A stretch of DNA of 36,627 bases. Source: Saccoglossus kowalevskii. Lineage: Eukaryota; Hemichordata; Enteropneusta; Harrimaniidae. Both the position numbers and the translations under genes were made by a program. Positions 1-36,627 of this stretch are shown here, in pieces. The stretch spans positions 1-36,627 of the forward strand of contig NW_003107670.1 of the NCBI RefSeq assembly GCF_000003605.2. Direction: 5' to 3'. The notes under the pieces are model-generated. The model was not told the DNA's origin. It saw only the letters and a program-made list of their open reading frames with translations, and searched no databases. The number at the start of each line of letters is the position of its first letter. The stretch's first letter is position 1.

Positions 1-86
1 GCAATTCTTATCCGCTAACAGTATTTATTAAGTGCAGCTGGTGTTCTTGTGCAATCTTGCAGAAAACTAAATCGTAGCAGCCAATA

Positions 87-160
87 CGACCCCGACAGGG
101 ACTCGAACCCGCAATCTTCTGATTCGAAGTCAGACGCCTTATCCATTAGGCCACGGAGTC
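87..160 (-). tRNA. tRNA-Arg (UCG), 74 nt with T-stem insertion
   Basis: Consensus apart from one extra base (plus-strand a at 97), which puts a bulged U in the 3' strand of the T stem. The same insertion recurs at 1204, 24760 and 32667, so it marks a subfamily. A and B boxes are intact, terminator aaaa at 63-66. Confidence 0.85.
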
Positions 161-363
161 TTAAGTACATCTTCGTCCTGTGCCATCTAATTTTTTTTAC
201 GAATTCCTATTTACCTGAATAATTGAATATGTCGTTGAGTTCTGCACATCCCCATATTTGCGAATTAGCACCTGGTGAATTTATTCTTGAAATAGTTGCA
301 TGTTTAGCTGTGACAGGTGTAGCAGTTCAATTTTGCAGAACACACAATTATTGCGTCGCTATA

Positions 364-433
364 CGACCACGATGTGACTCGGACCGCAATTATGTGATTC
401 GATGTCACATGCCTTATTCATTGGTATTTTATG
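364..433 (-). pseudogene. Degenerate tRNA-Arg relic, C type (reference)
   Basis: On the minus strand this aligns base for base with the intact tRNA-Arg through GGTCG at the 3' end, GAGTC of the T loop, TCGAA of the anticodon loop and ATAAGGC of the D arm. The 5' acceptor strand is AT-rich and unpaired, the D stem and A box are lost, and the T stem lacks a base. The anticodon stem is still perfect (TGTGA/TCACA) but U33 is A. No TTTT follows. C type means the copy keeps gcgtcg, tacgac, cgatg and gtgactc on the plus strand. Confidence 0.8.
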
Positions 434-652
434 TAATAGTGTTTTGCGTTTTTTTATAGTGCCACAAGGTGTTTTATGTCTAGATCCTAAAATTCCTGTC
501 TAATTGACTGACTCATCTGATCCAGCACATCAATGCTATCTCTTTAATTTCGCAAATTCTTATCCGCTAACAGTATTCACGACGTATTTTTTATTGAGTG
601 CAGCTGGTGTTCTTGTGCAATCTTGCAGAAAACTAAATCGTAGCAGCCCGTT

Positions 653-725
653 CGACCCCGACGGGACTCGAACCCGCAATCTTCTGATTCGAAGTCAGAC
701 GCCTTATCCATTAGGCCACGGAGTC
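653..725 (-). tRNA. tRNA-Arg (UCG), consensus copy
   Basis: Identical to the consensus copy at 3468. Its 3' flank is unusual: cagcccgttcgacc replaces the normal cagcc.atacgacc. Confidence 0.95.
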
Positions 726-927
726 TTAAGTACATCTTCATCCTGTGCCATCTAATTTTTTTACGAATTCCTATTTACCTGGATAATTGAATAAGTCGTT
801 GGGTTCTGCACATCCCCATATTTGCGAATTTTCACCTGCTAAATTTATTCTTGAAATAGTTGCATGTTTAGCTGTGACAGGTGTAGCAGTTCAATTTTGC
901 AGAACACACAATTATTGCGTCGCTATA

Positions 928-997
928 CGACCACGATGTGACTCGGACCGCAATTATGTGATTCGATGTCACATGCCTTATTCATTGGTATTTTATG
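928..997 (-). pseudogene. tRNA-Arg relic, C type
   Basis: Same as the 364 relic. Confidence 0.78.
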
Positions 998-1203
998 TAA
1001 TAGTGTTTTGCGTATTTTTTATAGTGCCACAAGGTGTTTTATGTCTAGATCCTAAAATTCCTGTCTAATTGACTGACTCATCTGATCCAGCACATCAATG
1101 TTATCTCTTTAATTTCGCAAATTCTTATCCGCTAACAGTATTTATTAAGTGCAGCTGGTGTTCTTGTGCAATCTTGCAGAAAACTAAATCGTAGCAGCCA
1201 ATA

Positions 1204-1277
1204 CGACCCCGACAGGGACTCGAACCCGCAATCTTCTGATTCGAAGTCAGACGCCTTATCCATTAGGCCACGGAGTC
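1204..1277 (-). tRNA. tRNA-Arg (UCG), 74 nt with T-stem insertion
   Basis: Carries the same extra T-stem base (plus a at 1214) as the copy at 87. It lies in a short-spacer (551 bp) unit. Confidence 0.85.
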
Positions 1278-1479
1278 TTAAGTACATCTTCATCCTGTGC
1301 CATCTAATTTTTTTACGAATTCCTATTTACCTGGATAATTGAATAAGTCGTTGGGTTCTGCACATCCCCATATTTGCGAATTTGCACCTGCTAAATTTAT
1401 TCTTGAAATAGTTGCATGTTTGGCTGTGACAGGTGTAGCAGTTCAATTTTGCAGAACACACAATTATTGCATCACCATA

Positions 1480-1549
1480 CGACCACGATGTGACTCGGAC
1501 CGCAATTATGTGATTCGATGTCACATGCCTTAATCATTGGTATTTTATG
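1480..1549 (-). pseudogene. tRNA-Arg relic, mixed type
   Basis: gcatcacc upstream but tacgac and cgatg kept; has ccttaatcattgg. Confidence 0.76.
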
Positions 1550-1769
1550 TAATAGTGTTTTGCGTTTTTTTATAGTGCCACAAGGTGTTTTATGTCTAGA
1601 TCCTAAAATTCCTGTCTAATTGACTGCCTCATCTGATCCAGCACATCAATGTTATCTCTTTAATTTCGCAAATTCTTATCCGCTAACAGTATTTACGACG
1701 TATTTTTTTATTGAGTGCAGCTGGTGTTCTTGTGCAATCTTGCAGAAAACTAAATCGTAGCAGCCAATA

Positions 1770-1843
1770 CGACCCCGACGGGACTCGAACCCGCAATCTT
1801 CTGATTCGAAGTCAGACGCCTTATCCATTAGGGCCACGGAGTC
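1770..1843 (-). tRNA. tRNA-Arg (UCG), 74 nt with extra C in D stem
   Basis: One extra G in the plus-strand run near 1831 gives GGCCCTAAT instead of GGCCTAAT. This shifts D-stem pairing and spoils the A-box spacing. The rest is consensus. Confidence 0.8.
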
Positions 1844-2045
1844 TTAAGTACATCTTCATCCTGTGCCATCTAATTTTTTTACGAATTCCTATTTACCTGG
1901 ATAATTGAATAAGTCGTTGGGTTATGCACATCCCCATATTTGCGAATTTGCACCTGCTAAATTTATTCTTGAAATAGTTGCATGTTTGGCTGTGACAGGT
2001 GTAGCAGTTCAATTTTGCAGAACACACAATTATTGCATCGCCATA

Positions 2046-2115
2046 TGACCACAATGTCACTCGGACCGCAATTATGTGATTCGATGTCACATGCCTCATT
2101 CGTTGGTATTTTATG
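2046..2115 (-). pseudogene. tRNA-Arg relic, A type (reference)
   Basis: A type differs from C type at three CpG sites (gcatcg, tatgac, caatg) and has gtcactc in place of gtgactc. Here also cctcattcg. The anticodon stem is unchanged. Confidence 0.76.
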
Positions 2116-2338
2116 TAATAGTATTTTGCGTTTTTTTTATAGTGCCACAAGGTCTTTTATATGTCTAGATCCTAAAATTCCTGTCTAATTTACTGACTCA
2201 TCAGATCCAGCACATCAATGTTATCTCTTTAATTTCGCAAATTCTTATTCGCTAACAGTATTTACGACGTATTTTTTTATTGAGTGCAGCTGGTGTTCTT
2301 GTGCAATCTTGCAGAAAACTAAATCGTAGCAGCAAATA

Positions 2339-2411
2339 CGACCCCGACGGCACTCGAACCCGCAATCTTCTGATTCGAAGTCAGACGCCTTATCCATTAG
2401 GCCACGGAGTC
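2339..2411 (-). tRNA. tRNA-Arg (UCG) with broken G53-C61 pair
   Basis: C61 is G (plus-strand c at 2351). This breaks the nearly universal G53-C61 pair closing the T loop and changes the B box. The same change is seen at 21399 and 28715. Function is doubtful. Confidence 0.8.
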
Positions 2412-2613
2412 TTAAGTACATCTTCATCCTGTGCCATCTAATTTTTTTACGAATTCCTATTTACCTGGATAATTGAATAAGTCGTTGGGTTCTGCACATC
2501 CCCATATTTGCGAATTTGCACCTGCTAAATTTATTCTTGAAATAGTTGCATGTTTGGCTGTGACAGGTGTAGCAGTTCAATTTTGCAGAACACACAATTA
2601 TTGCATCGCCATA

Positions 2614-2683
2614 TGACCACAATGTCACTCGGACCGCAATTATGTGATTCGATGTCACATGCCTCATTCGTTGGTATTTTATG
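2614..2683 (-). pseudogene. tRNA-Arg relic, A type
   Basis: Same as the 2046 relic. Confidence 0.76.
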
Positions 2684-2882
2684 TAATAGTATTTTGCGTT
2701 TTTTTTATAGTGCCACAAGGTCTTTTATATGTCTAGATCCTAAAATTCCTGTCTAATTTACTGACTCATCAGATCCAGCACATCAATGTTATCTCTTTAA
2801 TTTCGCAAATTCTTATTCGCTAACAGTATTTACGACGTATTTTTTTATTGAGTGCAGCTGGTGTTCTTGTGCAATCCTGCAG

Positions 2883-2885
2883 AAA
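2883..2885 (-). terminator. Shortened terminator (TTT)
   Basis: The unit of the 2906 copy has only three T at the terminator (gcagaaact on the plus strand). TTT is a weak Pol III stop, so read-through to the next T run would be expected if this copy is transcribed. Confidence 0.5.
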
Positions 2886-2905
2886 CTAAATCGTAGCAGC
2901 CCATA

Positions 2906-2978
2906 CGACCCAGACGGGACTCGAACCCGCAATCTTCTGATTCGAAGTCAGACGCCTTATCCATTAGACCACGGAGTC
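2906..2978 (-). tRNA. tRNA-Arg (UCG), acceptor mismatch
   Basis: G67 to U makes a C6/U67 mismatch, and C11 to U leaves a U.G wobble in the D stem. The terminator is only TTT. Confidence 0.82.
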
Positions 2979-3178
2979 TTAAGTACATCTTCATCTGTGC
3001 CATCTATTTTTTTACGAATTCCTATTTACCTGGATAATTGAATAAGTCGTTGGGTCCTGCACATCCCCGTATTTGCGAATTTGCACCTGGTAAATTTATT
3101 CTTGAAATAGTTGCATGTTTGGCTGTGACAGGTGTAGCAGTTCAATTTTGCAGAACACACAATTATTGCATCGCCATA

Positions 3179-3248
3179 TGACCACAATGTGACTCGGACC
3201 GCAATTATGTGATTCGATGTCACATGCCTTATTCATTGTTATTTTATG
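3179..3248 (-). pseudogene. tRNA-Arg relic, A type with gtgac
   Basis: Has cattgttatttt downstream, a mark shared with 27858, 28990 and 30121. Confidence 0.76.
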
Positions 3249-3443
3249 TAATAGTGTTTTGCGTTTTTTATAGTGCCACAAGGTGTTTTATGTCTAGATC
3301 CTAAAATTCCTGTCTAATTGACTGACTCATCTGATCCAGCACATCAATGTTATCTCTTTAATTTCGCAAATTCTTATCCGCTAACAGTATTTACGACGTA
3401 TTTTTTTATTGAGTGCAGCTGGTGTTCTTGTGCAATCTTGCAG

Positions 3444-3447
3444 AAAA
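3444..3447 (-). terminator. Pol III terminator TTTT (representative)
   Basis: The minus strand reads TTTT 20 nt past the tRNA 3' end (aaaa within gcagaaaac on the plus strand). The same run sits 21-24 bases before the plus-strand start of almost every tRNA copy. The matching place in the degenerate half has lost it, so only the intact half keeps both promoter and terminator. Confidence 0.75.
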
Positions 3448-3478
3448 CTAAATCGTAGCAGCCAATACGACCCCGACG

Positions 3479-3489
3479 GGACTCGAACC
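3479..3489 (-). promoter_or_regulatory. Pol III B box inside tRNA-Arg (representative)
   Basis: Minus strand GGTTCGAGTCC, tRNA positions 52-62, is an exact match to the B-box consensus GGTTCGANTCC bound by TFIIIC. The relic half has GGTCCGAGTCA-like sequence with two changes and a lost T-stem base. Confidence 0.88.
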
Positions 3490-3522
3490 CGCAATCTTCT
3501 GATTCGAAGTCAGACGCCTTAT

Positions 3523-3533
3523 CCATTAGGCCA
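3523..3533 (-). promoter_or_regulatory. Pol III A box inside tRNA-Arg (representative)
   Basis: Minus strand TGGCCTAATGG, tRNA positions 8-18, fits the eukaryotic A-box consensus TRGCNNAGNGG except A for G at one place, as is usual in Arg tRNAs. It is unchanged in most copies. The degenerate half has only a broken version. Confidence 0.85.
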
Positions 3534-3742
3534 CGGAGTCTTAAGTACATCTTCATCCTGTGCCATCTAATTTTTTTACGAATTCCTTTTTACCTGGATA
3601 ATTGAATAAGTCGTTGGGTTCTGCACATCCCCATATTTGCGAATTTGAACCTGCTAAATTTATTCTTGAAATAGTTGCATGTTTGGCTGTGACAGGTGTA
3701 GCAGTTCAATTTTGCAGAACACACAATTATTGCATCGCCATA

Positions 3743-3812
3743 TGACCACAATGTCACTCGGACCGCAATTATGTGATTCGATGTCACATGCCTCATTCGT
3801 TGGTATTTCATG
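3743..3812 (-). pseudogene. tRNA-Arg relic, A type
   Basis: cctcattcg form with tatttcatg. Confidence 0.76.
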
Positions 3813-4035
3813 TAATAGTATTTTGCGTTTTTTTTATAGTGCCACAAGGTCTTTTATATGTCCAGATCCTAAAATTCCTGTCTAATTGACTGACTCATCT
3901 GATCCAGCACATCAATGTTATCTCTTTAATTTCGCAAATTCTTATCCGCTAACAGTATTTACGACGTATTTTTTTATTGAGTGCAGCTGGTGTTCTTGTG
4001 CAATCTTGCAGAAAACTAAATCGTAGCAGCCCATA

Positions 4036-4108
4036 CGACCCAGACAGGACTCGAACCCGCAACCTTCTGATTCGAAGTCAGACGCCTTATCCATTAGACG
4101 ACGGAGTC
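4036..4108 (-). tRNA. tRNA-Arg (UCG), diverged copy
   Basis: Five differences from consensus: G67 to U, C63 to U, A46 to G, C11 to U and G9 to C. The C6/U67 mismatch is shared with the 2906 copy. Probably weakened; the anticodon is unchanged. Confidence 0.75.
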
Positions 4109-4305
4109 TTAAGTACATCTTCATCCTGTGCCATCTAATTTTTTACGAATTCCTATTACCTGGATAATTGAATAAGTCGTTGGGTTCTGCACATCCCCAT
4201 ATTGCGAATTTGCACTGCTAAATTTATTCTTGAAATAGTTGCATGTTTGGCTGTGACAGGTGTAGCAGTTCAATTTGCAGAACACACAATTATTGCATCG
4301 CCATA

Positions 4306-4375
4306 TGACCACAATGTCACTCGGACCGCAATTATGTGATTCGATGTCACATGCCTCATTCGTTGGTATTTTATG
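4306..4375 (-). pseudogene. tRNA-Arg relic, A type
   Basis: cctcattcg form. The unit has several single-base losses nearby (caatttgcag, atattgcg). Confidence 0.75.
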
Positions 4376-4598
4376 TAATAGTATTTTGCGTTTTTTTTAT
4401 AGTGCCACAAGGTCTTTTATATGTCTAGATCCTAAAATTCCTGTCTAATTTACTGACTCATCAGATCCAGCACATCAATGTTATCTCTTTAATTTCGCAA
4501 ATTCTTATTCGCTAACAGTATTTACGACGTATTTTTTTATTGAGTGCAGCTGGTGTTCTTGTGCAATCTTGCAGAAAACTAAATCGTAACAGCCAATA

Positions 4599-4671
4599 CG
4601 ACCCCGACGGGACTCGAACCCGCAATCTTCTGATTCGAAGTCAGACGCCTTATCCATTAGGCCACGGAGTC
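4599..4671 (-). tRNA. tRNA-Arg (UCG), consensus copy
   Basis: Identical to the 3468 copy. The trailer has gtaac in place of gtagc. Confidence 0.95.
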
Positions 4672-4872
4672 TTAAGTACATCTTCATCCTGTGCCATCTA
4701 ATTTTTTACGAATTCCTATTTACCTGGATAATTGAATAAGTCGTTGGGTCCTGCACATCCCCGTATTTGCGAATTTGCACCTGGTAAATTTATTCTTGAA
4801 ATAGTTGCATGTTTGGCTGTGACAGGTGTAGCAGTTCAATTTTGCAGAACACACAATTATTGCATCGCTATA

Positions 4873-4942
4873 CGACCACGATGTGACTCGGACCGCAATT
4901 ATGTGATTCGATGTCACATGCCTTATTCATTGGTATTTTATG
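4873..4942 (-). pseudogene. tRNA-Arg relic, C type with gcatcg
   Basis: One CpG changed upstream, the others kept. Confidence 0.76.
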
Positions 4943-5147
4943 TAATAGTGCTTTGCGTTTTTTTATAGTGCCACAAGGTGTTTTATGTCTAGATCCTAAA
5001 ATTCCTGTCTAATTGACTGACTCATCTGATCCAGCACATCAATGTTATCTCTTTAATTTCGCAAATTCTTATCCGCTAACAGTATTTATTAAGTGCAGCT
5101 GGTGTTCTTGTGCAATCTTGCAGAAAACTAAATCGTAGCAGCCAATA

Positions 5148-5220
5148 CGACCCCGACGGGACTCGAACCCGCAATCTTCTGATTCGAAGTCAGACGCCTT
5201 ATCCATTAGGCCACGGAGTC
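5148..5220 (-). tRNA. tRNA-Arg (UCG), consensus copy
   Basis: Identical to the 3468 copy. It lies in a short-spacer unit 549 bp from its neighbour. Confidence 0.95.
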
Positions 5221-5423
5221 TTAAGTACATTTTCATCCTGTGCCATCTAATTTTTTTTACGAATTCCTATTTACCTGAATAATTGAATATGTCGTTGAGT
5301 TCTGCACATCCCCATATTTGCGAATTAGCACCTGGTGAATTTATTCTTGAAATAGTTGCATGTTTAGCTGTGACAGGTGTAGCAGTTCAATTTTGCAGAA
5401 CACACAATTATTGCATCGCCATA

Positions 5424-5493
5424 TGACCACAATGTCACTCGGACCGCAATTATGTGATTCGATGTCACATGCCTTATTCGTTGGTATTTTATG
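5424..5493 (-). pseudogene. tRNA-Arg relic, A type
   Basis: Carries the tatgttgtaatag 3-base insertion just past the relic. Confidence 0.76.
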
Positions 5494-5720
5494 TTGTAAT
5501 AGTATTTTGCGGTTTTTTTTATAGTGCCACAAGGTGTTTTATATGTCTAGATCATAAAATTCCTGTCTAATTGACTGACTCATCTGATCCAGCACATCAA
5601 TGTTATCTCTTTAATTTCGCAAATTCTTATCCGCTAACAGTATTCACGACGTATTTTTTTATTGAGTGCAGCTGGTGTTCTTGTGCAATCTTGCAGAAAA
5701 CTAAATCGTAGCAGCCAATA

Positions 5721-5772
5721 CGACCCCGACGGGATTCGAAGTCAGACGCCTTGTCCATTAGGCCACGGAGTC
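5721..5772 (-). pseudogene. tRNA-Arg with 21-nt internal deletion
   Basis: Only 52 nt remain. The deleted block removes the T loop with its 5' stem, the variable loop and the 3' strand of the anticodon stem. A 2-base ga microhomology flanks the joint. The B box is gone, so Pol III transcription from this copy is not expected. A D-loop base is also changed (ttgtccatt). Confidence 0.9.
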
Positions 5773-5980
5773 TTAAGTACATCTTCATCCTGTGCCATCT
5801 AATTTTTTTTACGAATTCCTATTTACCTGGATAATTGAATATGTCGTTGGGTTCTGCACATCCCCATATTTGCGAATTAGCACCTGGTGAATTTATTCTT
5901 GAAATAGTTGCATGTTTGGCTGTGACAGGTGTAGCAGTTCAATTTTGCAGAAATTATTACACAATTATTGCGTCGCCATA

Positions 5981-6050
5981 CGACCACAATGTGACTTGGA
6001 CCGCAATTATGTGATTCGATGTCACATGCCTTATTCGTTGGTATTTTATG
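5981..6050 (-). pseudogene. tRNA-Arg relic, mixed type
   Basis: tacgac with caatg; actcgg is acttgg. Just upstream, aaattattac is a local insertion. Confidence 0.75.
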
Positions 6051-6275
6051 TAATAGTATTTTGCGTTTTTTTTTATAGTGCCACAAGGTGTTTTATATGT
6101 CTAGATCCTAAAATTTCTGTCTAATTGACTGACTCATCTGATCCAGCACATCAATGTTATCTCTTTAATTTCGCAAATTCTTATCCGCTAACAGTATTCA
6201 CGACGTATTTTTTTTATTGAGTGCAGCTGGTGTTCTTGTGCAATCTTGCAGAAAACTAAATCGTAGCAGCCAGTA

Positions 6276-6348
6276 CGACCCCGACGGGACTAGAACCCGC
6301 AATCTTCTGATTCGAAGTCAGACGCATTATCCATTAGGCCACGGAGTC
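6276..6348 (-). tRNA. tRNA-Arg (UCG), B-box and D-stem variant
   Basis: G57 to U in the T loop changes the B box, and G23 to U breaks the C12-G23 pair in the D stem. Likely impaired. Confidence 0.77.
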
Positions 6349-6550
6349 TTAAGTACATCTTCATCCTGTGCCATCTAATTTTTTTACGAATTCCTATTTA
6401 CCTGGATAATTGAATAAGTCGTTGGGTTCTGCACATCCCCATATTTGCGAATTTGCACCTGCTAAATTTATTCTTGAAATAGTTGCATGTTTGGCTGTGA
6501 CAGGTGTAGCAGTTCAATTTTGCAGAACACACAATTATTGCATCGCCATA

Positions 6551-6620
6551 CGACCACAATGTGACTCGGACCGCAATTATGTGATTCGATGTCACATGCC
6601 TTATTCGTTGGTATTTTATG
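6551..6620 (-). pseudogene. tRNA-Arg relic, mixed type
   Basis: gcatcg, tacgac, caatgtgac. Confidence 0.76.
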
Positions 6621-10872: not shown

Positions 10873-11081
10873 TTAAGAACATCTTCATCCTGTGCCATCT
10901 AATTTTCTTACGAATTCCTATTTACCTCGATAGTTGAATAAGTCGTTGGGTTCTGCACATCCCCATATTTGCGAATTGCGAATTTGCACCTGCTAAATTT
11001 ATTCTTGAAATAGTTGCATGTTTGGCTGTGACAGGTGTAGCAGTTCAATTTTCCAGAACACACAATTATTGCATCGCCATA

Positions 11082-11151
11082 TGACCACTATGTGACTCGG
11101 ACCGCAATTATGTGATTCGATGTCACATGCCTTATTCGTTGGTATTTTATG
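11082..11151 (-). pseudogene. tRNA-Arg relic, A-like
   Basis: accactatgtgac, with ttccagaac upstream. Same marks as the relic at 36505. Confidence 0.75.
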
Positions 11152-11364
11152 TAATAGTAGTTTGCGTTTTTTTTTTTATAGTGCCACAAGGTGTTTTATG
11201 TGTCTAGATCCTAAAATTCCTGTCAAATTGACTGAGTCATCTGATCCAGCACATCAATGTTATTTCATTAATTTCGCAAATTCTTATCCGCTAACAGTAT
11301 TCACGACGTATTTTTTTATTGAGTGCAGCTGGTGTTCTTGTGCAATCTTGCAGAAAACTAAATC

Positions 11365-11367
11365 GAA
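11365..11367. other. Deletion joint: unit lacking its tRNA-Arg
   Basis: Sequence jumps from the tRNA trailer (aaatcg) straight to gcgaattagcacc of the other flank. The next tRNA is 970 bp away instead of about 1136, so about 166 bp including one tRNA are missing. Confidence 0.8.
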
Positions 11368-11474
11368 TTTGCGAATTAGCACCTTGTGAATTTATTCTTG
11401 AAATAGTTTCATGTTTGGCTGTGACAGGTGTAGCAGTTCAATTTTGCAGAACACACAATTATTGCGTCGCCATA

Positions 11475-11544
11475 CGACCACGATGTAACTCGGACCGCAA
11501 TTATGTGATTCGATGTCACATGCCTTATTCGTTGGTATTTTATG
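11475..11544 (-). pseudogene. tRNA-Arg relic, C type with gtaac
   Basis: C-type 5' part with the ttgtaat tail of A types, a likely recombinant. It follows the tRNA-less joint at 11365. Confidence 0.75.
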
Positions 11545-11769
11545 TTGTAATAGTATTTTGCGTTTTTTTATAGTGCCACAAGGTGTTTTATATGTCTAGA
11601 TCCTAAAATTCCTGTCTAATTGACTGACTCATCTGATCCAGCTCATCAATGTTATCTCTTTAATTTTGCAAATTTTTATCCGCTAATAGTATTCACCATG
11701 TATTTTTTTATTGAGTGCTGCTGGTGTTCTTGTGCAATCTTGCAGAAAACTAAATCGAAGCAGCCAATA

Positions 11770-12114: not shown

Positions 12115-12340
12115 TTGCAATAGTATTTTGCGTTTTTTTTATAGTGCCACAAGGTGTTTTATATGTCTAGATCCTAAAATTCCTGTATAATTGACTGACT
12201 CATCTGATCCAGCTCATCAATGTTATCTCTTTAATTTTGCAAATTTTTATCCGCTAATAGTATTCACCATGTATTTTTGTATTGAGTGCTGCTGGTGTTC
12301 TTGTGCAATCTTGCAGAAAACTAAATCGTAGCAGCCAATA

Positions 12341-12413
12341 CGACCCCGACGGGACTCGAACCCGCAATCTTCTGATTCGAAGTCAGACGCCTTATCCATT
12401 AGGCCACGGAGTC
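12341..12413 (-). tRNA. tRNA-Arg (UCG), consensus copy
   Basis: Identical to the 3468 copy. The following unit is cut short by the deletion at 12507. Confidence 0.95.
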
Positions 12414-12506
12414 TTAAGTACATCTTCATCCTGTGCCATCTAATTTTTTTACGAATTCCTATTTACCTGGATAATTGAAAAAGTCGTTGGGTTCTGTACA
12501 TCCCCA

Positions 12507-12511
12507 TTTTT
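12507..12511. other. Deletion joint: unit lacking the degenerate half
   Basis: catcccca runs directly into tttttatagtg. The whole relic and its flank (about 200 bp) are missing, giving a 371-bp tRNA-to-tRNA spacing. Confidence 0.8.
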
Positions 12512-12711
12512 ATAGTGCCACAAGGTGTTTTATATGTCTAGATACTAAAATTCCTGTCTAATTGACTGACTCATCTGATGCAGCACATCAATGTTATCTC
12601 TTTAATTTCGCAAATTCTTATCCGCTAATAGTATTCACCATGTATTCTTTTATTGAGTGCTGGTGGTGTTCTTGTGGAATCTTGCAGAAAACTAAATCGT
12701 AGCAGCCCATA

Positions 12712-12784
12712 CAACCCCGACGGGACTCGAACCCGAAATCTTCTGATTCGAAGTCCGACGCCTTATCCATTAGGCCACGGAGTC
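12712..12784 (-). tRNA. tRNA-Arg (UCG), diverged copy
   Basis: C72 to U (G1.U72), G49 to U (U49/U65 mismatch) and U29 to G (G29/A41 mismatch). Probably a weak or dead copy. Confidence 0.75.
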
Positions 12785-12993
12785 TTAAGTACATCTTCAT
12801 CCTGTGCCATCTAATTTTTTACGAATTCCTATTTACCTGGATAATTGAATAAGTCGTTGGGTTCTGCACATCCCCATATTTGCGAATTTGCGAATTTGCA
12901 CCTGCTAAATTTATTCTTGAAATAGTTGCATGTTTGGCTGTGACAGGTGTAGCAGTTCAATTTTGCAGAACGCACAATTATTGCATCGCCATA

Positions 12994-16097: not shown

Positions 16098-16170
16098 CGA
16101 CCCCGACGGGACTCGAATCCGAAATCTTATGATTTGAAGTCAGACGCCTTATCCATTAGGCCACGGAGTA
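16098..16170 (-). tRNA. tRNA-Arg-like with UCA anticodon, degraded
   Basis: G36 to A (plus-strand t at 16135) gives loop CTTCAAA and anticodon UCA, complementary to UGA. It also has G53 to A, G49 to U, G42 to U and G1 to U, which break the T stem, the anticodon stem and the acceptor end. Most likely a pseudogene. Confidence 0.75.
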
Positions 16171-16664: not shown

Positions 16665-16737
16665 CGACCCCGACGGGACTCGAATCCAAAATCTTCTGAT
16701 TTGAAGTCAGACGCCTTATCCATTAGGCCACGGAGTA
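16665..16737 (-). tRNA. tRNA-Arg-like with UCA anticodon, degraded
   Basis: UCA anticodon plus G53 to A, C50 to U, G49 to U and G1 to U. The T stem has mismatches at both ends and the B box is changed. It is a near repeat of the 16098 unit. Confidence 0.75.
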
Positions 16738-19848: not shown

Positions 19849-20076
19849 TTGTAATAGTATTTTGCGTTTTTTTTTTATAGTGCCACAAGCTGTTTTATAT
19901 GTCTAGATCCTAAAATTCCTGTCTAATTGACTGACTCATCTGATCCAGCACATCAATGTTATCTCTTTAATTTCGCAAATTCTTATCCGCTAACAGTATT
20001 CACGACGTATTTTTTTATTGAGTGCAGCTGGTGTTCTTGTGCAATCTTGCAGAAAACTAAATCGTAGCAGCCAATA

Positions 20077-20149
20077 CGACCCCGACAGGACTCGAACCCG
20101 CAATCTTCTGATTTGAAGTCAGACGCCTTATCCATTAGGCCACGGAGTC
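20077..20149 (-). tRNA. tRNA with UCA anticodon on a near-perfect tRNA-Arg body
   Basis: G36 to A (plus-strand t at 20114) gives loop CTTCAAA and anticodon UCA, which pairs with the UGA stop codon. The only other change is C63 to U, a G51.U63 wobble. Acceptor, D, anticodon and T stems, A box, exact B box and TTTT terminator (20053-20056) are all intact. At 73 nt it is not a selenocysteine tRNA, which is longer with an extended acceptor and long variable arm. It would be scored as a suppressor-type tRNA. The next two copies in the same local family (20455, 20833) keep UCG. The change is a CG to TG transition on the plus strand, so recent CpG decay is the simplest source. Confidence 0.88.
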
Positions 20150-20277
20150 TTAAGTACATCTTCATACTGTGCCATCTAATTTTTTTTACGAATTCCTATT
20201 TACCTGGATAATTGAATATGTCGTTGGGTTCTGCACATCCCCATATTTGCGAATTAGCACCTGGTGAATTTATTCTT

Positions 20278-20282
20278 GATCT
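20278..20282. other. Deletion joint: 378-bp short unit, first copy
   Basis: ttattcttga runs straight into tctagatccta. The degenerate half and its left flank (about 188 bp) are absent. Confidence 0.85.
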
Positions 20283-20454
20283 AGATCCTAAAATTCCTGT
20301 CTAATTGACTGACTCATCTGATCCAGCACATCAATGTTATCTCTTTAATTTCACAAATTCTTATCCGCTAACAGTATTCACGACGTATTTTTTTATTGAG
20401 TGCAGCTGGTGTTCTTGTGCAATCTTGCAGAAAACTAAATCGTAGCAGCCAATA

Positions 20455-20527
20455 CGACCCCGACAGGACTCGAACCCGCAATCTTCTGATTCGAAGTCAG
20501 ACGCCTTATCCATTAGGCCACGGAGTC
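20455..20527 (-). tRNA. tRNA-Arg (UCG), C63U
   Basis: One wobble change. It lies between two 378-bp short units. Confidence 0.93.
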
Positions 20528-20654
20528 TTAAGTACATCTTCATACTGTGCCATCTAATTTTTTTTACGAATTCCTATTTACCTGGATAATTGAATATGTC
20601 GTTGGGTTCTGCACATCCCCATATTTGCGAATTAGCACCTGGTGAATTTATTCT

Positions 20655-20659
20655 TGATC
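20655..20659. other. Deletion joint: 378-bp short unit, second copy
   Basis: Same joint, base for base, as at 20279. The spacing is again 378 bp, so the deleted unit was copied in tandem after the deletion arose. Confidence 0.85.
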
Positions 20660-20832
20660 TAGATCCTAAAATTCCTGTCTAATTGACTGACTCATCTGAT
20701 CCAGCACATCAATGTTATCTCTTTAATTTCGCAAATTCTTATCCGCTAACAGTATTTACGACGTATTTTTTTATTGAGTGCAGCTGGTGTTCTTGTGCAA
20801 TCTTGCAGAAAACTAAATCGTAGCAGCCAATA

Positions 20833-20905
20833 CGACCCCGACAGGACTCGAACCCGCAATCTTCTGATTCGAAGTCGGACGCCTTATCCATTAGGCCACG
20901 GAGTC
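20833..20905 (-). tRNA. tRNA-Arg (UCG), C63U and U29C
   Basis: U29 to C puts a C/A mismatch in the middle of the anticodon stem; C63 to U is a wobble. Confidence 0.85.
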
Positions 20906-21108
20906 TTAAGTACATCTTCATACTGTGCCATCTAATTTTTTTTACGAATTCCTATTTACCTGGATAATTGAATATGTCGTTGGGTTCTGCACATCCCCAT
21001 ATTTGCGAATTAGCACCTGGTGAATTTATTCTTGAAATAGTTGCATGTTTGGCTGTGACAGGTGTAGCAGTTCAATTTTGCAGAACACACAATTATTGCG
21101 TCGCCATA

Positions 21109-22522: not shown

Positions 22523-22595
22523 CGACCCCGACGGGACTCGAATCCGAAATCTTCTGATTTGAAGTCAGACGCCTTATCCATTAGGCCACGGAGTA
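22523..22595 (-). tRNA. tRNA-Arg-like with UCA anticodon, degraded
   Basis: UCA anticodon (plus t at 22560) with G53 to A, G49 to U and G1 to U. Counterpart of the 16098 copy, 6425 bp away. Confidence 0.75.
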
Positions 22596-23088: not shown

Positions 23089-23161
23089 CGACCCCGACGG
23101 GACTCGAATCCGAAATCTTCTGATTTGAAGTCAGACGCCTTATCCATTAGGCCACGGAGTA
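23089..23161 (-). tRNA. tRNA-Arg-like with UCA anticodon, degraded
   Basis: Same changes as the 22523 copy (plus t at 23126). Counterpart of the 16665 copy, 6424 bp away. Confidence 0.75.
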
Positions 23162-29919: not shown

Positions 29920-30120
29920 TTAAGTACATCTTCATCCTGTGCCATCTAATTTTTTACGAATTCCTATTTACCTGGATAATTGAATAAGTCGTTGGGTCCT
30001 GCACATCCCCGTATTTGCGAATTTGCACCTGGTAAATTTATTCTTGAAATAGTTGCATGTTTGGCTGTGACAGGTGTAGCAGTTCAATTTTGCAGAACAC
30101 ACAATTATTGCATCGCCATA

Positions 30121-30190
30121 CGACCACAATGTGACTCGGACCGCAATTATGTGATTCGATGTCACATGCCTTATTCATTGTTATTTTATG
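30121..30190 (-). pseudogene. tRNA-Arg relic, mixed type
   Basis: Copy of 28990, 1131 bp away. Confidence 0.76.
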
Positions 30191-30409
30191 TAATAGTGTT
30201 TTGCGTTTTTTATAGTGCCACAAGGTGTTTTATGTCTAGATCCTAAAATTCCTGTCTAATTGACTGACTCATCTGATCCAGCACATCAATGTTATCTCTT
30301 TAATTTCGCAAATTCTTATCCGCTAACAGTATTTACGACGTATTTTTTTATTGAGTGCAGCTGGTGTTCTTGTGCAATCTTGCAGAAAACTAAATCGTAG
30401 CAGCCAATA

Positions 30410-30482
30410 CGACCCCGACGGGACTCGAACCCGCAATCTTCTGATTCGAAGTCAGACGCCTTATCCATTAGGCCACGGAGTC
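30410..30482 (-). tRNA. tRNA-Arg (UCG), consensus copy
   Basis: Identical to the 3468 copy; 1131 bp from the 29279 copy. Confidence 0.95.
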
Positions 30483-30684
30483 TTAAGTACATCTTCATCC
30501 TGTGCCATCTAATTTTTTTACGAATTCCTATTTACCTGGATAATTGAATAAGTCGTTGGGTTCTGCACATCCCCATATTTGCGAATTTGCACCTGCTAAA
30601 TTTATTCTTGAAATAGTTGCATGTTTGGCTGTGACAGGTGTAGCAGTTCAATTTTGCAGAACACACAATTATTGCATCGCCATA

Positions 30685-30754
30685 TGACCACAATGTCACT
30701 CGGACCGCAATTATGTGATTCGATGTCACATGCCTCATTCGTTGGTATTTTATG
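30685..30754 (-). pseudogene. tRNA-Arg relic, A type
   Basis: cctcattcg form, 1131 bp from 29554. Confidence 0.76.
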
Positions 30755-30969
30755 TAATAGTATTTTGCGTTTTTTTTATAGTGCCACAAGGTGTTTTATA
30801 TGTCTGGATGCTAAAATTCCTGTATAATTGACTGACTCATCTGATCCAGCACATCAATGTTATCTCTTTAATTTCGCAAATTCTTATCCGCTAACAGTAT
30901 TTATTTTTTATTGAGTGCAGCTGGTGTTCTTGTTCAATCTTGCAGAAAACTAAATCGTAGCAGCCAATA

Positions 30970-31042
30970 CGACCCCGACGGGACTCGAACCCGCAATCTT
31001 CTGATTCGAAGTCAGACGCCTTATCCATTAGGCCAAGGAGTT
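30970..31042 (-). tRNA. tRNA-Arg (UCG), G1A and G7U
   Basis: Third member of the 14964/21953 family. The T-rich flank has a unique intermediate form (tttattttttattgag). Confidence 0.82.
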
Positions 31043-31244
31043 TTAAGTACATTTTCATCCTGTGCCATCTAATTTTTTTTACGAATTCCTATTTACCTGA
31101 ATAATTGAATATGTCGTTGAGTTCTGCACATCCCCATATTTGTGAATTAGCACCTGGTGAATTTATTCTTGAAATATTTGCATGTTTAGCTGTGACAGGT
31201 GTAGCAGTTCAATTTTGCGAACACACAATTATTGCGTCGCCATA

Positions 31245-31314
31245 CGACCACGATGTGACTCGGACCGCAATTATGTGATTCGATGTCACATGCCTTATTC
31301 ATTGGTATTTTATG
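31245..31314 (-). pseudogene. tRNA-Arg relic, C type
   Basis: gcgaacac family. Confidence 0.77.
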
Positions 31315-31539
31315 TAATAGTGTTTTGCGTTTTTTTTTTATAGTGCCACAAGGTGTTTTATGTGTCTAGATCCTAAAATTTCTGTCTAATTGACTGACTC
31401 ATCTGATCCAGCACATCAATGTTATCTCTTTAATTTCGCAAATTCTTATCCGCTAATAGTATTCACCACGTATTTTTTTATTAAGTGCTGCTGGTGTTCT
31501 TGTGCAATCTTGCAGAAAACTAAATCGTAGCAGCCAATA

Positions 31540-31612
31540 CGACCCCGACGGAACTCGAACCCGCAATCTTCTGATTCGAAGTCAGACGCCTTATCCCTTA
31601 GGCCACGGAGTC
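31540..31612 (-). tRNA. tRNA-Arg (UCG), C61U and D-loop change
   Basis: Twin of the 10230 copy (plus a at 31552 and c at 31597). Confidence 0.85.
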
Positions 31613-31815
31613 TTAAGTACATCTTCATCCTGTTCCATCTAATTTTTTTTACGAATTCCTATTTACCTGGATAATTGAATATGCCTTTGTGTTCTGCACA
31701 TTCCCATATTTGCGAATTAGCACCTTGTGAATTTATTCTTGAAATAGTTTCATGTTTGGCTGTGACAGGTGTGGCAGTTCAATTTTGCAGAACACACAAT
31801 TATTGCGTCGCCATA

Positions 31816-31885
31816 CGACCACGATGTAACTCGGACCGCAATTATGTGATTCGATGTCACATGCCTTATTCATTGGTATTTTATG
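31816..31885 (-). pseudogene. tRNA-Arg relic, C type with gtaac
   Basis: Counterpart of 10506. Confidence 0.76.
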
Positions 31886-32110
31886 TAATAGTGTTTTGCG
31901 TTTTTTTTTATAGTGCCACAAGGTGTTTTATATGTCTAGATCCTAAAATTCCTGTATAATTGACTGACTCATCTGATCCAGCTCATCAATGTTATCTCTT
32001 TAATTTTGCAAATTTTTATCCGCTAATAGTATTCACCATGTAGTTTTTTTATTGAGTGCTGCTGGTGTTCTTGTGCAATCTTGCAGAAAACTAAATCGTA
32101 GCAGCCAATA

Positions 32111-32183
32111 CGACCCCGACGGGACTCGAACCCGCAATCTTCTGATTCGAAGTCAGACGCCTTATCCATTAGGCCACGGAGTC
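32111..32183 (-). tRNA. tRNA-Arg (UCG), consensus copy
   Basis: Identical to the 3468 copy. Its unit pairs with the 10800 unit, but lacks that copy's D-loop change. Confidence 0.95.
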
Positions 32184-32385
32184 TTAAGTACATCTTCATC
32201 CTGTGCCATCTAATTTTTTTACGAATTCCTATTTACCTGGATAGTTGAATAAGTCGTTGGGTTCTGCACATCCCCATATTTGCGAATTAGCACATGGTAA
32301 ATTTATTCTTGAAATAGTTGCATGTTTGGCTGTGTCAGGTGTAGCAGTTCAATTTTGCAGAACACACAATTATTGCATCGCCATA

Positions 32386-32455
32386 TGACCACAATGTCAC
32401 TCGGACCGCAATTATGTGATTCGATGTCACATGCCTTATTCGTTGGTATTTTATG
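32386..32455 (-). pseudogene. tRNA-Arg relic, A type
   Basis: ttgcaatag tail, as 12045. Confidence 0.76.
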
Positions 32456-32666
32456 TTGCAATAGTATTTTGCGTTTTTTTTATAGTGCCACAAGGTGTTT
32501 TATATGTCTAGATCCTAAAATTCCTGTATAATTTACTGACTCATCTGATCCAGCACATCAATGTTATCTCTTTAATTTCGCAAATTCTTATCCGCTAACA
32601 GTATTTATTAAGTGCAGCTGGTGTTCTTGTGCAATCTTGCAGAAAACTAAATCGTAGCAGCCAATA

Positions 32667-32740
32667 CGACCCCGACAGGGACTCGAACCCGCAATCTTCT
32701 GATTCGAAGTCAGACGCCTTATCCATTAGGCCACGGAGTC
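32667..32740 (-). tRNA. tRNA-Arg (UCG), 74 nt with T-stem insertion
   Basis: Extra base at plus 32677. Sequence and flanks match the 87 copy. Confidence 0.85.
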
Positions 32741-32943
32741 TTAAGTACATCTTCGTCCTGTGCCATCTAATTTTTTTTACGAATTCCTATTTACCTGAAT
32801 AATTGAATATGTCGTTGAGTTCTGCACATCCCCATATTTGCGAATTAGCACCTGGTGAATTTATTCTTGAAATAGTTGCATGTTTAGCTGTGACAGGTGT
32901 AGCAGTTCAATTTTGCAGAACACACAATTATTGCGTCGCTATA

Positions 32944-33013
32944 CGACCACGATGTGACTCGGACCGCAATTATGTGATTCGATGTCACATGCCTTATTCA
33001 TTGGTATTTTATG
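32944..33013 (-). pseudogene. tRNA-Arg relic, C type
   Basis: Matches the 364 relic and its flanks. Confidence 0.78.
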
Positions 33014-33233
33014 TAATAGTGTTTTGCGTTTTTTTATAGTGCCACAAGGTGTTTTATGTCTAGATCCTAAAATTCCTGTCTAATTGACTGACTCATCTGA
33101 TCCAGCACATCAATGCTATCTCTTTAATTTCGCAAATTCTTATCCGCTAACAGTATTCACGACGTATTTTTTTATTGAGTGCAGCTGGTGTTCTTGTGCA
33201 ATCTTGCAGAAAACTAAATCGTAGCAGCCCATA

Positions 33234-33306
33234 CGACCCCGACGGGACTCGAACCCGCAATCTTCTGATTCGAAGTCAGACGCCTTATCCATTAGGCCAC
33301 GGAGTC
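33234..33306 (-). tRNA. tRNA-Arg (UCG), consensus copy
   Basis: Identical to the 3468 copy. Counterpart of the 653 copy. Confidence 0.95.
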
Positions 33307-33508
33307 TTAAGTACATCTTCATCCTGTGCCATCTAATTTTTTTACGAATTCCTATTTACCTGGATAATTGAATAAGTCGTTGGGTTCTGCACATCCCCAT
33401 ATTTGCGAATTTGCACCTGCTAAATTTATTCTTGAAATAGTTGCATGTTTGGCTGTGACAGGTGTAGCAGTTCAATTTTGCAGAACACACAATTATTGCA
33501 TCGCCATA

Positions 33509-33578
33509 TGACCACAATGTCACTCGGACCGCAATTATGTGATTCGATGTCACATGCCTTATTCATTGGTATTTTATG
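33509..33578 (-). pseudogene. tRNA-Arg relic, A type
   Basis: A type with the cattgg tail usual in C types. Confidence 0.76.
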
Positions 33579-33797
33579 TAATAGTGCTTTGCGTTTTTTT
33601 ATAGTGCCACAAGGTGTTTTATGTCTAGATCCTAAAATTCCTGTCTAATTGACTGACTCATCTGATCCAGCACATCAATGTTATCTCTTTAATTTCGCAA
33701 ATTCTTATCCGCTAACAGTATTTACGACGTTTTTTTTATTGAGTGCAGCTGGTGTTCTTGTGCAATCTTGCAGAAAACTAAATCGTAGCAGCCAATA

Positions 33798-33870
33798 CGA
33801 CCCCGACGGGACTCGAACCCGCAATCTTCTGATTCGAAGTCAGACGCCTTATCCATTAGACCACGGAGTC
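33798..33870 (-). tRNA. tRNA-Arg (UCG), C11U
   Basis: One change, a U11.G24 wobble in the D stem and a changed A-box base. Confidence 0.92.
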
Positions 33871-34073
33871 TTAAGTACATCTTCGTCCTGTGCCATCTAA
33901 TTTTTTTTACGAATTCCTATTTACCTGAATAATTGAATATGTCGTTGAGTTCTGCACATCCCCATATTTGCGAATTAGCACCTGGTGAATTTATTCTTGA
34001 AATAGTTGCATGTTTAGCTGTGACAGGTGTAGCAGTTCAATTTTGCAGAACACACAATTATTGCGTCGCTATA

Positions 34074-34143
34074 CGACCACGATGTGACTCGGACCGCAAT
34101 TATGTGATTCGATGTCACATGCCTTATTCATTGGTATTTTATG
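34074..34143 (-). pseudogene. tRNA-Arg relic, C type
   Basis: As 928, including the gcgtattttttat tail. Confidence 0.77.
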
Positions 34144-34364
34144 TAATAGTGTTTTGCGTATTTTTTATAGTGCCACAAGGTGTTTTATGTCTAGATCCTA
34201 AAATTCCTGTCTAATTGACTGACTCATCTGATCCAGCACATCAATGTTATCTCTTTAATTTCGCAAATTCTTATCCGCTAACAGTATTTACGACGTATTT
34301 TTTTATTGAGTGCAGCTGGTGTTCTTGTGCAATCTTGCAGAAAACTAAATCGTAGCAGCCAATA

Positions 34365-34437
34365 CGACCCCGACGGGACTCGAACCCGCAATCTTCTGAT
34401 TCGAAGTCAGACGCCTTATCCATTAGGCCACGGAGTC
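34365..34437 (-). tRNA. tRNA-Arg (UCG), consensus copy
   Basis: Identical to the 3468 copy. The leader reads cttcatcttg, as at 25327. Confidence 0.95.
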
Positions 34438-34639
34438 TTAAGTACATCTTCATCTTGTGCCATCTAATTTTTTTACGAATTCCTATTTACCTGGATAATT
34501 GAATAAGTCGTTGGGTTCTGCACATCCCCATATTTGCGAATTAGCACCTGGTGAATTTATTCTTGAAATAGTTGCATGTTTAGCTGTGACAGGTGTAGCA
34601 GTTCAATTTTGCAGAACACACAATTATTGCGTCGCTATA

Positions 34640-34709
34640 CGACCACGATGTGACTCGGACCGCAATTATGTGATTCGATGTCACATGCCTTATTCATTGG
34701 TATTTTATG
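34640..34709 (-). pseudogene. tRNA-Arg relic, C type
   Basis: As 364. Confidence 0.77.
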
Positions 34710-34914
34710 TAATAGTGTTTTGCGTTTTTTTATAGTGCCACAAGGTGTTTTATGTCTAGATCCTAAAATTCCTGTATAATTTACTGACTCATCTGATCCA
34801 GCACATCAATGTTATCTCTTTAATTTCGCAAATTCTTATCCGCTAACAGTATTTATTAAGTGCAGCTGGTGTTCTTGTGCAATCTTGCAGAAAACTAAAT
34901 CGTAGCAGCCCATA

Positions 34915-34987
34915 TGACCCCGACGGGACTCGAACCCGCAATCTTCTGATTCGAAGTCAGACGCCTTATCCATTAGGCCACGGAGTC
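34915..34987 (-). tRNA. tRNA-Arg (UCG), discriminator A73
   Basis: Same as the 24206 copy, in a 550-bp unit. Confidence 0.93.
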
Positions 34988-35189
34988 TTAAGTACATCTT
35001 CATCCTGTGCCATCTAATTTTTTTACGAATTCCTATTTACCTGGATAATTGAATAAGTCGTTGGGTTCTGCACATCCCCATATTTGCGAATTTGCACCTG
35101 CTAAATTTATTCTTGAAATAGTTGCATGTTTGGCTGTGACAGGTGTAGCAGTTCAATTTTGCAGAACACACAATTATTGCGTCGCTATA

Positions 35190-35259
35190 CGACCACGATG
35201 TGACTCGGACCGCAATTATGTGATTCGATGTCACATGCCTTATTCATTGGTATTTTATG
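35190..35259 (-). pseudogene. tRNA-Arg relic, C type
   Basis: C-type relic joined to a left flank of the A-type form (tttgcacctgcta). Confidence 0.77.
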
Positions 35260-35463
35260 TAATAGTGTTGTGCGTTTTTTTATAGTGCCACAAGGTGTTT
35301 TATGTCTAGATCCTAAAATTCCTGTATAATTTACTGCTCATCTGATCCAGCACATCAATGTTATCTCTTTAATTTCGCAAATTCTTATCCGTTAACAGTA
35401 TTTATTAAGTGCAGCTGGTGTTCTTGTGCAATCTTGCAGAAAAATAAATCGTAGCAGCCCATA

Positions 35464-35536
35464 TGACCCCGACGGGACTCGAACCCGCAATCTTCTGATT
35501 CGAAGTCAGATGCCTTATCCATTAGGCCACGGAGTC
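35464..35536 (-). tRNA. tRNA-Arg (UCG), A73 and G26A
   Basis: Discriminator A and G26 to A. The terminator is longer here (TTTTT on the minus strand). Confidence 0.9.
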
Positions 35537-35739
35537 TTTAAGTACATCTTCATCCTGTGCCATCTAATTTTTTTACGAATTCCTATTTACCTGGATAATT
35601 GAATAAGTCGTTGGGTTCTGCACATCCCCATATTTGCGATTTTGCACCTGCTAAATTTATTCTTGAAATAGTTGCATGTTTGGCTGTGACAGGTGTAGCA
35701 GTTCAATTTTGCAGAACACACAATTATTGCATCGCCATA

Positions 35740-35809
35740 TGACCACAATGTGACTCGGACCGCAATTATGTGATTCGATGTCACATGCCTTATTCATTGG
35801 TATTTTATG
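35740..35809 (-). pseudogene. tRNA-Arg relic, A type with gtgac
   Basis: cattgg tail. Confidence 0.76.
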
Positions 35810-36029
35810 TAATAGTGTTTTGCTTTTTTTTATAGTGCCACAAGGTGTTTTATGTCTAGATCCTAAAATTCCTGTCTAATTGACTGAGTCATCTGATCCA
35901 GCACATCAATGTTATCTCTTTAATTTCGCAAATTCTTATCCGCTAACAGTATTCACGACGTATTTTTTTATTGAGTGCAGCTGGTGTTCTTGTGCAATCT
36001 TGCAGAAAACTAAATCGTAGCAGCCCATA

Positions 36030-36102
36030 CGACCTTGACGGGACTCGAACCCGCAATCTTCTGATTCCAAGTCAGACGCCTTATCCATTAGGCCACGGAG
36101 TC
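36030..36102 (-). tRNA. tRNA-Arg body with UGG (Pro-type) anticodon
   Basis: C35 to G (plus c at 36068) gives loop CTTGGAA and anticodon UGG, which reads CCN proline codons. G68 and G67 are both A, leaving two adjacent C/A mismatches in the acceptor stem, so the copy may be dead. A box, B box, T arm and terminator are intact. Arginyl-tRNA synthetase usually depends on C35, so charging with Arg would be expected to fall. Confidence 0.8.
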
Positions 36103-36304
36103 TTAAGTACATCTTCATCCTGTGCCATCTTATTTTTTTACGAATTCCTATTTACCTGGATAATTGAATAAGTCGTTGGGTTCTGTACATCCCCATATTT
36201 GCGAATTAGCACCTGGTAAATTTATTCTTGAAATAGTTGCATGTTTGGCTGTGACAGGTGTAGCAGTTCAATTTTGCAGAACACACAATTATTGCATCGC
36301 CATA

Positions 36305-36317
36305 CGACCACAATGTG
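36305..36317 (-). pseudogene. Truncated tRNA-Arg relic
   Basis: Only the 3' acceptor and part of the T arm remain before the deletion joint. Confidence 0.7.
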
Positions 36318-36319
36318 CT
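36317..36319. other. Deletion joint: relic cut and tRNA half missing
   Basis: The relic starting at 36305 stops after 13 nt (caatgtg) and joins ctatctattttttta of the next tRNA leader flank. About 365 bp, including a whole tRNA-Arg, are missing. Confidence 0.8.
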
Positions 36320-36504
36320 ATCTATTTTTTTACCAATTTCTATTTACCTGGATAATTGAATAAGTCGTTGGGTTCTGCACATCTCCATATTTGCGAATTT
36401 GCGAATTTGCACCTGCTAAATTTATTCTTGAAATAGTTGCATGTTTGGCTGTGACAGGTGTAGCAGTTCAATTTTCCAGAACACACAATTATTGCATCGC
36501 CATA

Positions 36505-36574
36505 TGACCACTATGTGACTCGGACCGCAATTATGTGATTCGATGTCACATGCCTTATTCGTTGGTATTTTATG
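36505..36574 (-). pseudogene. tRNA-Arg relic, A-like
   Basis: accactatgtgac, as 11082; tail tatgataatag. Confidence 0.75.
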
Positions 36575-36627
36575 ATAATAGTAGTTTGCGTTTTTTTTTT
36601 TATAGTGCCACAAGGTGTTTTATGTTG

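Follow-up and report, generated by a model that had tools for sequence, protein, structure and literature searches.

Why would an animal genome hold dozens of head-to-tail copies of the gene for one transfer RNA (tRNA)? The question is raised by contig C237, the whole of which (36,627 nt) is the window analysed here, in an assembly of 572,110,611 bases and 4830 contigs. The contig is filled by a tandem array of tRNA-Arg(UCG) genes, called Arg-TCG below. A first-pass annotation had offered three readings of it: a bulk supply of tRNA, a satellite with a tRNA captured by chance, or an element that organizes chromatin. We conclude that the window is probably a functional array of RNA polymerase III (Pol III) genes that supplies tRNA-Arg(UCG) from tandemly amplified copies, in a host whose small-RNA genes are in many cases kept as separate one-gene arrays. 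This conclusion is drawn from the array itself, from its relatives in the same assembly and from other small-RNA arrays in that genome.

Structure of the array

ARAGORN identifies 64 tRNA genes in the window, all on the minus strand, and Rfam cmscan at the gathering threshold returns 64 tRNA matches of 40.0–72.1 bits against a cut-off of 29. A blastn search adds a 65th copy, so that the contig holds 64 full-length tRNA-Arg copies and one that is internally deleted; 20 copies are identical across 73 nt. Spacing from tRNA to tRNA has a median of 566 bp and a mean of 561.6 bp over 64 intervals. The first-pass description of 65 minus-strand copies at a pitch of about 565 bp, 20 of them identical, is thereby confirmed. 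The array reaches both contig ends with no unique flank, and its unit has a guanine plus cytosine (GC) content of 38–40%.

The annotation had also found no other gene. This holds for RNA families, since Rfam cmscan of the window gave none besides tRNA above the cut-off, and for proteins as judged by lengths of open reading frames only, without comparison to protein families (five ATG frames of at least 80 amino acids, the longest 113). It overlooked a decayed tRNA-Arg-like copy, or relic, which occurs exactly once in 60 of the 64 intervals, twice in one and not at all in three. Relics are 76–81% identical to the tRNA by blastn, over stretches inside nucleotides 14–73, and stand most commonly 291 bp from the preceding tRNA and 274–275 bp from the next.

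The stretches downstream of the relic and of the tRNA match each other with a score of 96, compared with a shuffled mean of 46 (standard deviation 7.5, maximum 70, 500 shuffles), in a comparison of one consensus with mononucleotide shuffles. Because a relic recurs in the intervals and these downstream stretches match, the unit of about 566 bp is, judging from its sequence, an old, decayed tandem dimer of a tRNA and its 3′ spacer. Counting against a dimer, the upstream stretches of the two halves match at the level of chance (18.5 versus 19.4, standard deviation 5.2). Spacing departs from the norm in three short intervals (378, 378 and 371 bp), which are those that lack a relic, and in one long interval (970 bp), which is the one with two; all four look like products of unequal exchange. 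Tandem Repeats Finder, with a longest period of 500, gave four rows for the window, all of 200–392 bp, and no short repeats.

Relics also occur in another family, as 38 partial tRNA matches lie beside 16 full copies in C4103:91000-100000. By eye, each ~580-bp Thr-TGT unit there seems to include two more pieces of decayed, tRNA-like sequence.

Gene features of the repeated tRNA

The copies keep predicted features of a Pol III tRNA gene: a cloverleaf, internal promoter boxes and a T-run terminator. In the canonical copy listed in Table 1, the A box (TGGCCTAATGG) and B box (GGTTCGAGTCC) are intact, judged against the usual consensus sequences. TTTT lies no more than 25 nt downstream of 92% of 64 copies, versus 9% of random spacer positions. 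We made the same comparison in six families, at one locus each, and five are enriched (0.84–1.00 versus 0.09–0.40): besides Arg-TCG, these are Arg-ACG (0.84 versus 0.22, n = 19), Arg-CCT (1.00 versus 0.14, n = 30), Cys (0.97 versus 0.40, n = 35) and Thr (0.88 versus 0.16, n = 16). The exception is Trp (0.00 versus 0.12, n = 13).

Arg-TCG copies elsewhere in the genome

Two further contigs, C1937 (51,187 bp) and C3006 (16,305 bp), carry Arg-TCG arrays; two sampled stretches of the former hold 18 and 14 tRNAs, and one of the latter holds 15. The exact 54-nt core of the tRNA occurs 77 times in the genome (35 on C1937, 31 on C237, 10 on C3006 and 1 on C3484), and thus 76 of the 77 cores are on array contigs. 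These counts come from a pattern search, the similarity search of the genome being one that passes over the commonest repeats and missed C1937 and C3006. A pattern like that of a tRNA-derived short interspersed nuclear element was not seen, all exact cores but that on C3484 being tandem, in a search that could miss diverged dispersed copies.

The sole exact core away from the arrays, at C3484:37170-37242, has a TTTT nearby and readable flanks unlike the array spacer. A decayed relative of the unit, 72–84% identical, lies at C1938:1574424-1574996 on a 1.9-Mb contig; its partial tRNA adjoins N letters, and the stretch is perhaps an old array remnant. Readable flanking DNA has a GC fraction of about 0.36, and stretches at 0.20–0.24 contain N.

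In a nearest-neighbour comparison of 76 units (43 from C237, 24 from C1937 and 9 from C3006), the units of the three contigs intermingle. The longest exact stretches shared with C237 measure 1020 and 711 bp for the two pieces of C1937 and 656 bp for C3006. These matches fall at scattered offsets, those to C1937 on no single diagonal, and the best three-unit run between contigs differs by 0.9%; the contigs therefore seem to draw on a common pool of units and not to be plain copies of one another. Beyond this genome, a 23-nt spacer word and a 57-nt tRNA core had no exact match in a collection of viral contigs, and a 31-nt tRNA core had none in a collection of genome contigs.

Other small-RNA arrays

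The first-pass description of an array of one rare-codon isoacceptor was misleading, as the array is one of many in its genome. Stretches of 4–10 kb, in which a few copies read as other types, showed Arg-ACG arrays with a 485-bp pitch (C4645, C4549, C3594, C574, C4163 and C4113), arrays of intron-containing Arg-CCT (C476 and C3883), Cys-GCA arrays with a pitch of ~237 bp (C926, C682 and C4368), a Thr-TGT array at ~580 bp (in the sampled part of C4103) and a Trp-CCA array at 466 bp (C4826).

Patterns typical of animal tRNAs add arrays of initiator Met and Ile. The initiator Met pattern matched 177 times, and 97 of the 100 places listed are on four contigs with repeated matches (64 on C341, 28 on C3681, 3 on C2143 and 2 on C848; C183, C285 and C3574 have one each). 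Ile gave 269 matches in the genome, and the 46 for which letters were shown are, we take it, of the Ile-AAT type. A further tRNA pattern matched 37 times, 30 of them on C4166 and 4 on C2779. A first pass of the Rfam tRNA model over the genome yielded 25,204 candidates, 63 of which were scored.

Arraying extends to 5S ribosomal RNA (rRNA), with 47 scored matches on C3485, C3801 and C2212, and to U5, with 45 matches, one on C4724 and the remainder on C191, C3795 and C2012. Among the U5 copies listed for C3795, those up to ~12 kb are on the plus strand and those from ~20 kb on the minus strand, a layout that reflects either an inverted arrangement or an assembly fold-back.

Each unit holds one tRNA type across the families seen. 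The spacers of six families, compared over one stretch each, are unrelated save for one 41-nt match. The genes therefore appear to have been amplified independently, a pattern that one opportunistic satellite would leave unexplained.

Diversity and homogenization

Diversity of the tRNA falls below that of its spacer, which in this comparison includes the relics, in three of six families: Cys (0.051 versus 0.104, 162 units), Arg-ACG (0.058 versus 0.086, 79 units) and Arg-CCT (0.038 versus 0.071, 33 units). The fraction of spacer windows as low as the tRNA is 0.00, 0.15 and 0.00, respectively.

Neighbouring units on C237 resemble one another a little more than expected (0.0320, permutation p 0.0005). 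Among 43 units, which differ by 3.5% on average, one of 903 pairs is identical. The units stand head to tail and evolve together, as those of a satellite do. Given the likeness of neighbouring units, the retained tRNA features and the independent arrays of other genes, set against the diversity data, a gene array homogenized by concerted evolution fits best, and a tRNA-capturing satellite fits less well.

Several observations weigh against a functional gene array. In Arg-TCG itself the diversity of the tRNA is not below that of the spacer (0.036 versus 0.034 over 97 units; 0.027 versus 0.033 without CpG sites), and the same is true of Thr (0.047 versus 0.038, 13 units) and Trp (0.042 versus 0.040, 9 units). 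A test for purifying selection in the window gave no signal: variants outside CpG occur in a mean of 2.1 copies in the tRNA and 3.6 in the spacer (p 0.41). Of the spacer windows there, 17% are intact in as many units as the tRNA is (22 of 60). Similarity shows no trend across the whole C237 array (r −0.067), and 10 of 112 Arg-TCG copies have another anticodon. Expression could, moreover, come from the dispersed copy on C3484. Weak selection on each copy would be expected because so many copies are redundant.

We propose that an ancestral tRNA and its 3′ spacer were tandemly duplicated, that one of the two tRNAs decayed, and that the resulting dimer of ~566 bp was then amplified. Unequal exchange or gene conversion would then keep its units alike, much as in ribosomal DNA. 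Transcription from the array, and a number of active copies, are presumed in this scheme, and selection on total dose would maintain the array.

Table 1 Features of the 36,627-nt window
Position	Strand	Feature	Evidence
1–36627	−	Head-to-tail ~566-bp units carrying one tRNA-Arg apiece, with a relic in 60 of 64 intervals	ARAGORN, Rfam, blastn
364–422	−	Example relic, first 13 nt absent	blastn, 80% identity over nt 14–73
629–632	−	TTTT run, candidate Pol III terminator, 20 nt 3′ of the tRNA at 653–725
653–725	−	Canonical 73-nt tRNA-Arg(UCG), one of the 20 identical copies	ARAGORN; Rfam 70.4 bits
5721–5772	−	65th tRNA-Arg copy, internal deletion (nt 1–40, then nt 60–73)	blastn
10972–11759	−	Direct duplication, 392-bp period × 2, within the 970-bp two-relic interval	Tandem Repeats Finder, interval analysis
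12136–12881	−	Two 371-bp periods; tRNA-to-tRNA interval without relic	Tandem Repeats Finder, interval analysis
16098–16170, 16665–16737, 22523–22595, 23089–23161	−	Other copies with anticodon UCA	ARAGORN, Rfam
19902–21035	−	Three 378-bp periods, head to tail; both tRNA-to-tRNA intervals without relic	Tandem Repeats Finder, interval analysis
20077–20149	−	Near-intact tRNA-Arg, anticodon UCA (would read UGA)	ARAGORN; Rfam 67.5 bits
36030–36102	−	Anticodon UGG (Pro-type) on an Arg tRNA body	ARAGORN, Rfam

Alternative explanations

Of the three first-pass readings, bulk supply of tRNA is the best supported, on the sequence features kept (cloverleaf and T-run) and on the confinement of almost all exact cores to arrays. 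The second reading, a satellite DNA that took up tRNA-Arg and multiplied through repeat dynamics of its own, with the tRNAs as passengers and the C3484 copy doing the work, we regard as unlikely. It gains from the equal diversity of Arg-TCG tRNA and spacer, from the spread of a decayed tRNA alongside an intact one, and from the existence of an isolated copy with a TTTT nearby. What weakens it is that the same arrangement is found for seven other tRNA types, 5S rRNA and U5, several of them essential small RNAs, and that the spacers of the six families compared are unrelated. Retention of terminators in five of six families, tRNA diversity below that of the spacer in three of six and the concentration of 76 of 77 exact cores in arrays also speak against it, and the 64 window tRNAs above the Rfam cut-off argue against a satellite devoid of gene function. 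The annotation would have counted the gene-cluster reading as refuted if, among other things, tRNAscan-SE scored most copies as pseudogenes; by ARAGORN and Rfam, all 64 full-length copies score as tRNAs.

A chromatin role as the array's main function, in which Pol III factors bound at a regular pitch would shape a nuclear domain or boundary, an idea put forward for human 1q23.3, is very improbable, although such a role may exist as a side effect. Intact tRNA genes at regular pitch would suit it, as would the CTCF binding described for the human repeat in excerpts of PMC4041453, but the human unit is given there as 7.3 kb and GC-rich, compared with 0.57 kb and 38–40% GC here. Least credible is an assembly artefact in which collapsed or mis-joined repeats make a short cluster seem long: the examined parts of the Arg-TCG contigs (C1937 and C3006 having only been sampled) show no unique flank, and exact stretches of up to 1020 bp recur between contigs, but window units are almost never identical, the long exact C1937 matches are scattered, and about ten gene types share the pattern.

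Drifted anticodons and the host

ARAGORN reads the anticodons of the 64 window copies as 57 TCG, 5 TCA, 1 ACG and 1 TGG; across the three array contigs, the 112 Arg-TCG copies examined comprise 102 TCG, 6 TCA, 2 TCC, 1 ACG and 1 TGG. The five window copies with UCA are labelled tRNA-SeC by ARAGORN and would read the UGA stop codon if expressed. Such a copy, if transcribed and charged with Arg, would put Arg at UGA, and the persistence of these copies suggests that they are diluted or silent.

The host may be approached through its mitochondrial code. One COX1 was found in the assembly, on C4830 (17,037 bp) at C4830:13523-14863, with seven in-frame TGA codons and 362 of 447 positions (81%) identical to mouse. 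None of its eight ATA codons lies opposite Met in mouse or bovine COX1, whereas its 19 ATG codons lie opposite Met in 17 cases in mouse and 18 in bovine; the single AAA codon lies opposite Lys. COX1 appears to read ATA as Ile, as cnidarians and sponges do too. Excerpts of PMC2697986 give ATA as Ile in echinoderms and hemichordates alike, and AAA as Asn in echinoderms versus Lys in Saccoglossus. By its sequence motifs the protein looks bilaterian, while the code would also suit a cnidarian; the host is an animal and possibly a hemichordate. AGA and AGG are absent from the 447 codons of the COX1 stretch, which would be unusual if they are assigned.

A wider proposal, which we consider possible and somewhat doubtful, is that independent amplification in a bilaterian lineage, probably ambulacrarian, gathered much of the small-RNA gene set into one-gene satellites, as happened in Hydractinia, and that the animal tolerates UGA-reading and other wrong-anticodon tRNA-Arg copies by dilution or by silencing most copies. 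Should the host lie outside the cnidarians, the layout either has more than one origin or extends more widely than the literature records. Among literature titles and abstracts we found none on genome-wide single-isoacceptor arrays in a bilaterian, which is weak evidence.

Comparison with known systems

Separately homogenized arrays of tRNA, 5S and U5 genes allow one to ask whether concerted evolution, dose or nuclear organization is the driver, and how cells cope with copies whose anticodons have drifted, given that 6 of 112 Arg copies would read UGA. At human 1q23.3, as here, tRNA genes lie in a tandem repeat; according to excerpts of PMC4041453, that repeat has 9–43 units per allele and, unlike C237, a long, GC-rich and CTCF-bound unit. 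Excerpts of PMC2652664 describe tandem arrays of homogenized units for most tRNA types in Entamoeba. Some of these arrays resemble ours in having a single type, such as [R-TCT], whereas in many others the unit combines several tRNA genes (up to five in E. histolytica), some with 5S; the short tandem repeats described there between genes of E. histolytica and E. dispar were not seen in the window.

Among animals, excerpts of PMC2888827 report more than 17,000 tRNA genes in Nematostella vectensis, 89% of them clustered, and, both there and in teleosts, clusters with fifty or more members. The zebrafish differs from the present genome in that its most frequent reported neighbour pairs are of mixed type (K-N, K-S and R-T). 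The closest likeness is to Hydractinia, for which excerpts of PMC11067881 describe evenly spaced non-coding RNA arrays of tens to hundreds of similar copies, including tRNAs, 5S and U5, and call such a layout unusual outside Entamoeba. Both genomes have evenly spaced, near-identical copies of one small-RNA gene in those numbers, similar spacers of several hundred nucleotides (or more in Hydractinia), and arrayed 5S rRNA and U5. The Hydractinia arrays cover tRNAs for all 20 amino acids, as well as U1, U2, U6 and U3; in the present genome at least eight tRNA types are arrayed (Arg with three anticodons, Cys, Thr, Trp, Ile and initiator Met). The present array is therefore of a kind already known from Hydractinia and in part from Nematostella, and adds a further case, possibly in a distant lineage.

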